From Bacteroidota bacterium (GTDB taxonomy: Bacteria; Bacteroidota; Bacteroidia; Bacteroidales; Lentimicrobiaceae): a DNA stretch of 64,000 nucleotides. A program made the position numbers and the translations under genes. The DNA lies in contig WSXX01000007.1 in the NCBI GenBank assembly GCA_009773515.1, forward strand, positions 1 to 64,000, read 5' to 3'. The notes below the pieces were generated by a model. That model did not search any database, was not told where the DNA came from, and worked only from the letters and a program-made list of their open reading frames with translations. Below are positions 44,119-63,605 of the stretch, piece by piece; the stretch's first letter is position 1; each line of letters begins with the position of its first letter.

Positions 44119-44228
44119 TATTCTTAATTTTTTAGTGGATGTTTCTGGTCTACGTGAATATGTGACGAGAAATACTGTCCATGTCCTTTGTGTTGTATCT
44201 TTCTTTGCATTAGCTAAACCAAGAAAAT

Positions 44229-44325
44229 TTACTCAACACTCCGCAAATTCTTCTATTCGCCATAATAACCCATAGTACAAATCAAATCATCGCATCAAAT
44301 ATAACCACTTTTTAAATATGCAAGC
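44229..44325 (-). promoter_or_regulatory. Shared promoter/leader element, copy A
   Basis: Minus strand: ATATTTAAAAAGTGGTTATATTTGATGCGATGATTTGATTTGT...GCGGAGTGTTGAGTAAATTT; TATATTTG at 44296-44303. Confidence 0.6.
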
Positions 44326-44623
44326 CATTTCATCTGCCTTTCAATTCACTCGTAAGATTTAATACCCTTTAAAAGCCATTTAAAAACCAATTAAACACAG
44401 TCCCGGCGATTGTAATTTTACATTCAATCCGGCGAAACCATACCAAAATATACATACAGCATTTTTATACGTTTGAGGCTTAGCGCGGGCGGGCAGTTTT
44501 GAAAGCATCTCTTTTCGGCCAGCACAGTTTTCAATAAATGTTCAATCTTTCTCCTTATAACAATCTGTCTATTAGCGATTTGATTTTACTAGCAGCTGGA
44601 TTTTTTTATTAATTTTTGTTCAT

Positions 44624-45469
44624 TCATTCAGGCAGTTCTTTTATAGATTCAACCTGAGTATTGAGAACTCTAAGCATCATCACAATAGCAAATTTAACAC
44701 CTTCTTCTTCAAGAATAATGTCCTTCAAGAATATTTTTTCAGTACCATATTTTGCAGGAAAGCTTATTGTCACAAAAGTAAATTCTGATTTTGCCCTCTC
44801 TTTGAATCTGTATTGTACTAGAGGCATTCCAGAATACTTCCTTAGAAATTTATCAATACTTTGATCAGGTTGTCGCCAATTGACCAAGTCGATGTTAATC
44901 CATATTTCATTCCATGTATCGAAAAAAGGAAAATGTGCAAATATGTTACGAATAAACTTTATAAGTGGTCCTGAAATGTCAGATTCCATTGGAGGTCGAT
45001 GCTTTTCAATCCAGTTCAGAACACCTTTCATGGGTTCGTGATTTAATATTTCACCGTATATTAAAAACGCTTGTGAAATTCTACCGAGCCTATAATTTGG
45101 TTCCTGATTCCAAAAATTTTCCGAGAACACCTCAGATTTAATGTCATAGAATTTATTATAACTAAGATTGAGAAACAACTCTTCAGCTTCTGTCACGGGG
45201 ACATTGCCCTTTTCAAAAGCTTGCTTCACTTTAGTTGTGTGGTCAATCACCTGAGTTCTTAATTCTTCAGAATCAGAATTAAAAATATACATTGATAAAT
45301 TTTCTGCATTTAAAGTCTCCAAAATGATATTGAGACCAATTAAATCATGCGAATTGAGGCAATTGCAAGCAAATGTTAGAGAATTGGATAGCTCAGTCAA
45401 ATTCATTGTCTTCAAGCTACTATTTAGCTTTTGAACAAGAGAAATCAGTGAGTCTACCCTTTCTTGCAT
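44624..45469 (-). CDS. HEPN-like protein (candidate RNase) paired with TIR protein
   Basis: 281 aa, mostly helical; GPLIKFIRNIFAHFPFFDTWNEIW contains an R-N-x-x-A-H (Rx4H) motif as in HEPN domains; starts 60 nt after the TIR stop, same strand. Confidence 0.5.
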   Translation of the reverse strand: MQERVDSLISLVQKLNSSLKTMNLTELSNSLTFACNCLNSHDLIGLNIILETLNAENLSMYIFNSDSEELRTQVIDHTTKVKQAFEKGNVPVTEAEELFLNLSYNKFYDIKSEVFSENFWNQEPNYRLGRISQAFLIYGEILNHEPMKGVLNWIEKHRPPMESDISGPLIKFIRNIFAHFPFFDTWNEIWINIDLVNWRQPDQSIDKFLRKYSGMPLVQYRFKERAKSEFTFVTISFPAKYGTEKIFLKDIILEEEGVKFAIVMMLRVLNTQVESIKELPE

Positions 45470-45529
45470 AAATTCTATTTGTGGCTTTTGTTTATTAATC
45501 TTGCTGTTGACGGTCGTGGTGATAGTTTT

Positions 45530-46306
45530 TCATTTTCCCAATATTCTTTTTGTCTGTCTGATTAAATTAACTAATAACTCTTCCTTTTCATTCATATCCA
45601 TTTTAGATACAGGTTTATCAGGTGAATTCATAGCCTGAAACTTATTTAATGCTCCAAAACTCTCAAATAAACATGGCTTCAATATTAATGTTAAAATAAC
45701 GGCTCCTTCTTCTTCAGCGGCCGTTAATAGCGGTGGAAGCTCATTTGTTGCAATAAAATCAGAACCTAAGAAATCAGTGCTAACTAAAAGAATTGCAATT
45801 TTAGTTTCATCAATGGCTTTTTTTATTTCTTCTTTCCATTTTTGTCCTGGAAAAATCATAGTATCATCCCAATAGTCAATATCTTTCAAAAAGGGTTTAA
45901 AATGTCTTTGGATGTCCGTAAGAAACTCTTTGTCAAAATGGCTATAGCTTATAAATACTTTAATCCTTGGTTTATTATTTTTGGGGTGAAACTTCTGTCG
46001 TGCAACAGTAGGAAGTGTTTCAAGTTCTTGGTTTATATAAAAAAGTATCTTTTCAGCGTTAATCTCAAAAATACACGTAGGACTTTGTTCTCCACCATGA
46101 GATTTGTTTCGATGTACTTGTAGGTTTTCTCTTAAATTAAGTTCAATTTCGTCAAGGAAAATTGCCTTGCTTTCAGATGTATAAAAATCCCTGAGCCTAT
46201 CCTTTATTATATGAAAATCATCAATTGCATTCCTTCTATTAGAGCGATTAATATAATGTTCAGTAAATTCTTTTGCTTCATTTCTAATTAAAGGTTCATT
46301 ATCCAT
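45530..46306 (-). CDS. TIR domain protein
   Basis: RIKVFISYSHFDKEFLTDIQRHFKPFLKDIDYWDDTMIFPGQKWKEEIKKAIDETKIAILLVSTDFLGSDFIATNELPPLLTAAEEEGAVILTLILKPC: TIR_2-type; likely start MDNEPL at 46306. Confidence 0.85.
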   Translation of the reverse strand: MDNEPLIRNEAKEFTEHYINRSNRRNAIDDFHIIKDRLRDFYTSESKAIFLDEIELNLRENLQVHRNKSHGGEQSPTCIFEINAEKILFYINQELETLPTVARQKFHPKNNKPRIKVFISYSHFDKEFLTDIQRHFKPFLKDIDYWDDTMIFPGQKWKEEIKKAIDETKIAILLVSTDFLGSDFIATNELPPLLTAAEEEGAVILTLILKPCLFESFGALNKFQAMNSPDKPVSKMDMNEKEELLVNLIRQTKRILGK

Positions 46307-46340
46307 GGTTCTAAGGTTTTGTTCGATTCTTAAAATTATC

Positions 46341-46460
46341 ACCAACGAGTATTTATATGCAACACTGCGCGCATATCTGACTTGTCTTCACACTAAAACC
46401 AATAAACAAATCAGATTATCGCACCAAATATAACAACTTTTTAAATATCCAGGTTATCCA
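46341..46460 (-). promoter_or_regulatory. Shared promoter/leader element, copy B
   Basis: Minus strand: TATATTTGGTGCGATAATCTGATTTGT...ACAAGTCAGATATGCGCGCAGTGTTGCATATAAATACTCGTTGG. Confidence 0.7.
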
Positions 46461-46640: not shown

Positions 46641-46988
46641 TTAATAGTTTTCTATTGTTAAAACTTTCGAAAGTGCATCTTTTATTTCTTCAAGATTGTT
46701 GGAGGAAATTCTTCCAATTTTTTTTATGAATCTTTCCTCAGATATTGACCTGATTTGGAAACAATCAACTGCTGATTCTTTTGATAAGTTGTTATGGTTG
46801 TCAGGTTTTATATAAACCATCCAGGGAGCTATTTCAAATTTTTCTTTCCAATCAGTGACAGGAACTATGATTTTTAATGGCAGTTTTCCAAGAGAATTAT
46901 CATTAACAATAACAGCAGGTCTTATTTTCTTAATTTCAGCTCCTAAAGTAGGGTCGAGATTGATTAACCAGATTTCACTTTGTTTCAT
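46641..46988 (-). CDS. mazF: MazF/PemK family toxin
   Basis: MKQSEIWLINLDPTLGAEIKKIRPAVIVNDNSLGKLPLKIIVPVTDW; likely start 46988. Confidence 0.9.
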   Translation of the reverse strand: MKQSEIWLINLDPTLGAEIKKIRPAVIVNDNSLGKLPLKIIVPVTDWKEKFEIAPWMVYIKPDNHNNLSKESAVDCFQIRSISEERFIKKIGRISSNNLEEIKDALSKVLTIENY

Positions 46989-47187
46989 AAAATTCTTCAT
47001 AATCAAGTTGAGTAAAAGCAATTAATTCCTCGTCATTCTTGTAGTCCTCAAAAAGAGATTCGGCTGCTTTTACCATCCTATTTCTTGTTTCGCTTTCTAT
47101 AATTGTTTTCAAAGTTCTTTCAACTATAAGCATTCTTTTGCTTACAGGAAGTTTTCTGATTGCTCTGATAATGTCTCTTGTTTCCAT
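46975..47187 (-). CDS. Cognate antitoxin of the MazF-like toxin
   Basis: METRDIIRAIRKLPVSKRMLIVERTLKTIIE..., small acidic-tailed protein overlapping the toxin start by 14 nt. Confidence 0.75.
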   Translation of the reverse strand: METRDIIRAIRKLPVSKRMLIVERTLKTIIESETRNRMVKAAESLFEDYKNDEELIAFTQLDYEEFYETK

Positions 47188-47224
47188 AATTCGAACTATT
47201 CCTTTCTGCAAAGATAAAGTTTTT

Positions 47225-47632
47225 TCAGGTCGTAATCAAAGCTCCACTATTCGGCATTTCTCTTATCCAACTGGCTCTGCGGGTTTGTACTGCAAAATAG
47301 TTTTGAGCAAAGGCAATTTCTTCTTTTCGGCTATCGCCATTTTGAGCAATGAGATAACAGGCATAACGTGTCAAAAGTATGTCATCTATTTCTTTTTCAG
47401 CACCTTTTGGCATGGGTATCGTTTTCCTGACGTCAGGAAAATGATAAACCACTTCCTCTCCTGCATTGTTACATGAGTCTTTAGCTTTTTGGATTACCTT
47501 TTCAAAGTTCTCCCATTTGCTGTAACCTAATAAAGATTGTAATTCACGTGCACTCCAACATTCAACACCTTCTAACTCAGAGGCAGCGGCTTCAAATTGG
47601 GAAAATAAATTATTAATTTCGTCAGACTTCAT
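47225..47632 (-). pseudogene. DinD-like (DNA-damage-inducible protein D) gene, C-terminally truncated
   Basis: WSARELQSLLGYSKWENFEKVIQKAKDSC...LLTRYACYLIAQNGDSRKEEIAFAQNYFAVQTRRA matches the DinD N-terminal half, then ends after 15 more residues. Confidence 0.75.
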
Positions 47633-47881
47633 TAGCTTGATTTTATGGTATAAATTATCAGTATTTGTTCAAGTGTCAAATATAAAACAATTCAAGGATA
47701 GACACAAAGTCATTCTCGAACAATGGAGACCAAATAATTTGCTTAGGCATGATAAATTTCCTGAGAATTTCGGACATAACTTTTTCGTTGGTAACAAAAT
47801 AGTGTTTAAAGCGGAATTGCAAAATCCCGCTTAGCACGGGCTGAACACCAAATATTTTATATTGTGCGATAACGGTTGTTC

Positions 47882-48481
47882 TTATTCAAACTTGTAATTC
47901 TTGTAATAATACTGTCTATCGTCATCTGTTATTTCTCTTAATACTTTACAAGGGTTTCCTACTGCAATTACATTATATGGAATGTCTTTTGTAACCACAC
48001 TTCCAGAACCTATTACTGAATTCATTCCTATTGTAACACCTGGATTTATCACAACATTTCCACCAATCCAAACATTGTTTCCAATATTTATTGGAAAAGC
48101 ATACTCATATTCCTGGTTTCTCATTTCATGATGCAGTGGATGTCCCGCTGTATATAACCCAACATTTGGACCTATATAAACGTTATCACCAATCGAGACT
48201 TTCGCACAATCAAGGATAATCAAATTGTAATTTGAATAGAAATTCTCCCCAATTTCTATATTATATCCATAATCACAGCGGAAAGGTGGTTCAATAAAAA
48301 ATTTATTTGTCGTTTTGCCTAAGAGGTTTACTAATATTTTATTTCGTTTCTTAATTTGATTTGGTCGCAAAGAATTAAACTCAAAAATCATTTCTTTTGC
48401 ATGTTGCCTTTCTGTTAATAACTCATCGCTAAAAGCATTATATGGCATTCCAGAAATCATTTTTTCCTTTTCACTTATCAT
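47882..48481 (-). CDS. Maltose/galactoside O-acetyltransferase-like hexapeptide transferase
   Basis: MISGMPYNAFSDELLTERQHAKEMIFEFNSL, FIEPPFRCDYGYNIEIGENFYSNYNLIILD, GGNVVINPGVTIGMNSVIGSGSVVTKDIP. Confidence 0.93.
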   Translation of the reverse strand: MISEKEKMISGMPYNAFSDELLTERQHAKEMIFEFNSLRPNQIKKRNKILVNLLGKTTNKFFIEPPFRCDYGYNIEIGENFYSNYNLIILDCAKVSIGDNVYIGPNVGLYTAGHPLHHEMRNQEYEYAFPINIGNNVWIGGNVVINPGVTIGMNSVIGSGSVVTKDIPYNVIAVGNPCKVLREITDDDRQYYYKNYKFE

Positions 48482-48529
48482 AATAAATCCCGTTTTTTGT
48501 TATGCTATTCAATTTCTCAAGAATAACCT

Positions 48530-48640
48530 CTAACGAGTAAATATTCTCAACACTGCGTAGATCTGACTCGCCTTCAATCGGAAACCAATGCTACAAATCA
48601 GATCACCGCATCAAATATAACAACATTTTAATATCCAGGC
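48530..48640 (-). promoter_or_regulatory. Shared promoter/leader element, copy C
   Basis: Minus strand: TATATTTGATGCGGTGATCTGATTTGT...GAGTCAGATCTACGCAGTGTTGAGAATATTTACTCGTTAG. Confidence 0.7.
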
Positions 48641-48792
48641 TGTCCTATTGGCCTTTCATTTCATCCATTGGATTAAAAAACCGGCAGAATACATTGAACT
48701 GCAAATTCAATGGTATTTAAAGTGGAATTGCAAATTCTGCTTAGCCAGGCAGAAATATCTGCAAGGTTATTCCGAAACGCCGGCCACCCCAT

Positions 48793-63489: not shown

Positions 63490-63605
63490 TTATAAATTTA
63501 AATTTTTTCTATATTTGAGGCGAAAATCTGAGCTATTGAGGAAGACAGATTTCTTGTTAACAAGTCAGATATATACGCAATATTGCGAATATCCACTCGC
63601 TATTA
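63490..63605 (+). promoter_or_regulatory. Shared promoter/leader element, copy D
   Basis: TATATTTGAGGCGAAAATCTGA...ACAAGTCAGATATATACGCAATATTGCGAATATCCACTCGCTAT. Confidence 0.65.

Follow-up and report, generated by a model that had tools for sequence, protein, structure and literature searches.

The window, a stretch of 64,000 nucleotides from a Bacteroidota bacterium of the Lentimicrobiaceae (contig WSXX01000007.1), contains two adjoining genes on the reverse strand. The gene for a TIR-domain protein comes first and is followed, on the same strand and after a gap of 60 nt, by the gene for a 281-aa protein. The coordinates (Table 1) confirm the arrangement described in a sequence-only reading of this DNA. 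An alternative TTG start at position 46345 would give a TIR protein of 271 aa. G+C content is 33% across the gene pair, as against 42-48% in the flanks on both sides, a value consistent with acquired DNA. A search for relatives of the 281-aa protein returned none among 18 other genomes of the genus and, together with the low G+C content, this suggests that the block was probably acquired. No known RNA element was matched in an Rfam search of the window.

Table 1. Positions in the window of the two genes, their conserved elements and the copies of the ~130-bp repeat.
Feature	Position	Strand	Remarks
TIR-domain protein gene	45530..46306	(-)	258 aa counted from ATG
TIR domain (Pfam TIR_2, residues 117-212)	45671..45958	(-)	46.4 bits, cut-off 28
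Glu189 codon (NELPPLL)	45740..45742	(-)	candidate NADase catalytic residue, role suggested by known TIR NADases
HEPN-like protein gene	44624..45469	(-)	281 aa, intact frame
N-terminal helical extension of HEPN-like protein, residues 1-93	45191..45469	(-)	
Conserved core of HEPN-like family, residues 94-281	44627..45190	(-)	
Invariant Glu140 codon	45050..45052	(-)	second predicted core helix
R174-N-I-F-A-H179 motif	44933..44950	(-)	end of third main predicted core helix
Repeat copy 1	44215..44337	(+)	downstream of HEPN-like gene, upstream of DUF4468 protein gene (start 44118)
Repeat copy 2	46339..46459	(+)	upstream of TIR gene, 33 nt from ATG
Repeat copy 3	48527..48652	(+)	bounds PemK/MazF - Bro-N - acetyltransferase block
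Further repeat copy in the window	63496-63605	(-)	

The TIR_2 match lies well above its cut-off, in agreement with the TIR effector proposed from the sequence, and the catalytic-type glutamate expected in NELPPLL is residue 189. Like ThsB and other prokaryotic TIR effectors, the protein has this glutamate, and its TIR half matches the PADLOC ThsB profile at 7e-15. Unlike ThsB, it has no recognised ThsA-type partner adjoining it, and its N-terminal ~113 residues match no known family; a search of 396 phylum genomes gave no credible homologue of this part. Relatives of the TIR protein differ from it in their N-terminal parts and in their neighbours, and none was found in viral contigs.

The 281-aa protein carries FIRNIFAHFPFF, which includes R174 and H179 in an Rx4H arrangement. 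The R-N-x-x-A-H motif noticed in the sequence-only reading is thus present as R174-N-I-F-A-H179, and it is conserved in homologues. Alignment of 33 homologues, down to 21% identity, revealed that R174 and H179 are invariant and that N175 is kept in at least 90% of sequences, with a single replacement by aspartate. E140, F180, P181 and W186 are also invariant. Since the R-N-x3-H motif is kept across homologues this divergent, it is not a chance occurrence. The protein therefore has the motif that characterizes the HEPN superfamily, Rx4-6H with a polar residue directly after the arginine. The N-terminal extension is found only in L085 and, in part, in L086, both from Bacteroidota. Between L085 and the 281-aa protein, identity is 36% in the extension and 68% in the core, so that the extension is the faster-evolving part. 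Another family member, L110, has an N-terminal extension of a different kind.

AlphaFold produced confident models of both the full-length protein (pLDDT 90.3, pTM 0.77) and the core alone (pLDDT 88.1, pTM 0.83). In the core model, helices span residues 2-21, 31-49 (where E47 is E140), an insert at 52-64, 73-86 (where R81 and H86 are R174 and H179) and 161-185. The modelled order is thus helix 1, helix 2 with E140, a helical insert, helix 3 ending in R174...H179, a beta hairpin and helix 4. The published description of the HEPN domain covers helix order, placement of the motif and an acidic residue in helix 2, with Csx1 having a beta hairpin after the motif (PMC3710099). The models agree with this description, the comparison being one of secondary-structure order only. 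Foldseek searches of PDB and BFVD with either model, run without a divergent-HEPN positive control, returned no HEPN at E <= 10. Two HEPN families were also compared by profile; the matches were not significant, although the RN-xxx-H motifs were in register, and the positive control was weak too. Assignment of the protein to pEK499_p136 or MAE_28990 was rejected on this basis, the in-register motif notwithstanding. Because Foldseek yielded no HEPN structure and the profile comparisons were uninformative, we use only the name "HEPN-like". The earlier proposal that this is a HEPN protein is thus upheld in its invariant R-N-x3-H, upstream glutamate and helix order, and is left without a structural match. 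We infer from the models and the conserved residues that the protein is HEPN-like and may act as an RNase.

No family model for the 281-aa protein exists in Pfam, NCBIfam or PADLOC. Matches to NARF, Cas13a and ACT were weak, those to NARF and ACT falling under the curated cut-offs, and were rejected. The family search was started with three members, to which a Pseudoalteromonas plasmid copy was then added. Genome contigs yielded 38 loci and viral contigs a further 6; as the same locus was sometimes met twice, about 43 HEPN-like loci are distinct. Members occur in Proteobacteria, Firmicutes, Bacteroidota, Chloroflexi, CPR (candidate phyla) and archaea, with Vibrio, Marinomonas, Shewanella, Psychromonas, Sphingobacterium, Mucilaginibacter, Kurthia, Bacillus, Clostridium, Chloroflexi and Methanosarcina among the named hosts. 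A typical member is ~190 aa long and corresponds to residues 94-281, most members being without the extension. The HEPN-like frame seems broken or shortened in L107 (Shewanella), L117 (Facklamia) and L119 (Thiomicrorhabdus). Closer examination of the weak matches G153, G577 and G488 suggested that they are due to chance. No relatives of the 281-aa protein were found in phage records.

Most family loci consist of a single gene, and no partner gene recurs from locus to locus. L085 and L086, the closest two relatives (68 and 66% identity), are solitary between housekeeping genes; the former adjoins a glycosyltransferase gene and the latter is flanked by valyl-tRNA synthetase and rlmH genes. Elsewhere, the immediate neighbours of family genes include GajA (6.7e-161), a GajB-type helicase, SduA (1.5e-123), PDC-M62A, SoFic/Fic and R.HinP1I restriction genes, a list to be read without a background rate. 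The HEPN-like gene of L090 is two genes away from that of an integron integrase (TIGR02249, 407 bits, cut-off 265), and those of L088 and L092 have repeat arrays downstream. Six loci are on contigs catalogued as viral, and some are in predicted proviruses. The integron, provirus, Gabija, Shedu, Fic and restriction settings, together with the absence of a constant partner, indicate that the family genes are likely mobile modules of one gene each, acting in defence or as toxins. Another cassette array is suggested by L081, from a Bacteroidetes MAG (contig shared with L102): small genes surround the HEPN-like gene, and the intergenic stretches between them are repeated, their spurious ORFs having sequence in common.

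The closest described counterpart is the "Integron cassette HEPN" family (Vpc_cass2, PDB 3JRT), which belongs to the HEPN superfamily and whose cassettes are predicted to encode dormancy-inducing RNases (PMC3710099, Anantharaman et al. 2013). The two families share Rx4-6H, the polar residue after the arginine, the acidic residue in helix 2, a predicted RNase function and occurrence as a single gene on gammaproteobacterial integron cassettes. An integron-cassette location was found for the present family in some loci (L090, L088 and L092) and not in the window. Unlike the Integron cassette HEPN family, the 281-aa family has FP and W following its Rx4H motif, a beta hairpin between the motif and the last helix and a far broader host range, and the window protein has an N-terminal extension. 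In phmmer and hmmsearch searches of PDB chains, 3JRT was not listed up to E = 10 and no PDB HEPN chain was matched. The pEK499_p136 HEPN family (PF18736) has an RNxxAH-type motif in register with that of the 281-aa family, but the match is not significant, a single family member being matched at E = 0.037.

The gene pair is enclosed by two copies of a diverged ~130-bp repeat. At least 31 copies are present in the genome, in 14 regions (L026-L039), mostly the same way round and spaced so as to delimit cassette-like gene blocks. Read on the gene strand, the repeat has an invariant-rich stretch, ATATTTAAAAAGTTGTTATATTTG, in which the Bacteroidetes -7 box is matched; a palindrome close to ATATACGCAATATTGCGTATAT is also often present. 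In copy 2, TATATTTG (46425-46432, gene strand) matches the promoter box TAnnTTTG. At 25 of 30 testable copies, the start of an ORF of 80 aa or longer lies from -20 to 120 nt downstream on the same strand; at random places the figure is 7.5%. Accessory genes behind the repeat include those for a second TIR protein, a DncV-like cyclic-nucleotide synthase and a DndB-like protein, among others. The second TIR protein (L037:518-1429 (+), contig C60) is enclosed by two repeat copies. At L032:2544-5362 (+), on contig C38 and downstream of a repeat copy, we read a type I restriction methylase-like gene; the DncV-like synthase (SMODS) there is likely a CBASS gene. The repeat-bounded block adjoining the gene pair in the window (46641-48481, reverse strand) encodes a PemK/MazF-type toxin, a Bro-N protein and a maltose-acetyltransferase-like protein, and a small gene upstream in it likely encodes an antitoxin. 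Of the 19 genomes of the genus, 8 hold a match to the repeat; one of these is the present genome, and the others have 1-6 matches each.

Identification of the repeat as an integron attC site was rejected. RNAalifold, with RNA energy parameters, gave no consensus pair for 30 copies, and all TIGR02249 matches in the genome fell below the cut-off, as they did in 14 control genomes. With neither a conserved fold nor an integron integrase, the repeat is not a standard attC. Its simplest reading is a portable promoter-leader, the promoter role being suggested by the -7 box match. An account of the locus as a whole in which the repeat, as such a leader or as a non-integron recombination site, brings together accessory and defence genes in this Bacteroidota genus and drives their expression as cassettes, with the TIR and HEPN-like genes as cargo of one such cassette, strikes us as unlikely.

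The sequence-only reading had proposed that the two genes form a two-component abortive-infection system, and neighbourhood conservation had been set beforehand as the test that could refute it. Homologues of the two genes were not co-located elsewhere. A tblastn search with the TIR protein gave no match in 47 HEPN-like family loci (483 kb, ~43 distinct). A search of these 483 kb with a TIR profile likewise gave none, although the profile recovers both of this genome's TIRs; a TIR gene was thus found at 0 of 47 HEPN-like loci. Conversely, the HEPN-like profile matched at 0 of 29 loci of TIR relatives, each extending 1.5 kb per side. Even L085 and L086, which share the N-terminal extension, are without a TIR gene. 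The proposal therefore fails this test and is not supported by the other genomes examined. A narrower version, in which a TIR sensor or signal maker and a HEPN-like RNase are expressed from one transcript and abort infection in this lineage only, could draw on the 60-nt spacing on one strand, on the presence of one repeat, with its promoter-like box, upstream of the TIR gene and the absence of any between the two genes, on the enclosure of both genes by two repeat copies and on the one recorded fusion of a DUF4145-type HEPN with a TIR (PMC3710099). The lack of co-location in either direction, the solitary nearest HEPN-like relatives and the differing N-terminal parts and neighbours of the TIR relatives nonetheless make it improbable. 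Gene adjacency and the faster evolution of the extension than of the core could also be taken to mean that the TIR protein or the extension restrains a HEPN-like toxin, as in a toxin-antitoxin pair, but the family has no constant partner and most relatives lack the extension, and we give this reading very little credence.

A more serious doubt concerns the fold. The conserved R-N-x3-H-F-P could belong to another helical-plus-beta-hairpin fold, for example one that binds nucleic acid or protein. The missing fold match in PDB and BFVD and the missing family in Pfam, NCBIfam and PADLOC would fit such a protein, as would the conserved W186, the hairpin after the motif and the unusual H-F-P tail. 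The order of the helices and the positions of the motif and acidic residue are nevertheless those of the published HEPN description, including the Csx1 hairpin, and conservation is centred on R, N, H and E. We therefore consider a non-HEPN fold doubtful, though the likeliest of these alternatives. The explanation we favour, and hold to be somewhat probable, is that the locus contains two independent defence-type effectors in one acquired block, probably with a common promoter. In this explanation the 281-aa protein would be a self-contained, horizontally mobile HEPN-like ribonuclease, in which the R174/H179 pair and E140 would together make up an RNase site, independent of metal and located at a homodimer interface; phage or stress would trigger the RNase and growth would stop. 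The fast-evolving N-terminal helical domain would have been gained in this lineage and may serve as a trigger or a brake. The TIR protein, with an N-terminal domain of its own, would act separately as an effector that consumes NAD or signals through it. Many HEPN toxins come with an antitoxin partner, whereas the HEPN-like gene is single in most loci, a difference that counts against this explanation.

What appears to be new here is the unnamed HEPN-like family and, less certainly, the repeat. The locus cautions that two adjoining defence-type genes do not necessarily form one joint system, and the repeat ahead of accessory genes in this genome is a candidate gene-gathering device. The HEPN-like family has been missed by current defence catalogues even though its genes lie beside Gabija, Shedu and restriction genes and in integrons. 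If the RNase activity is confirmed, a HEPN-like family that is unnamed, encoded by single genes and spread over a very wide range of hosts would be added to those known.
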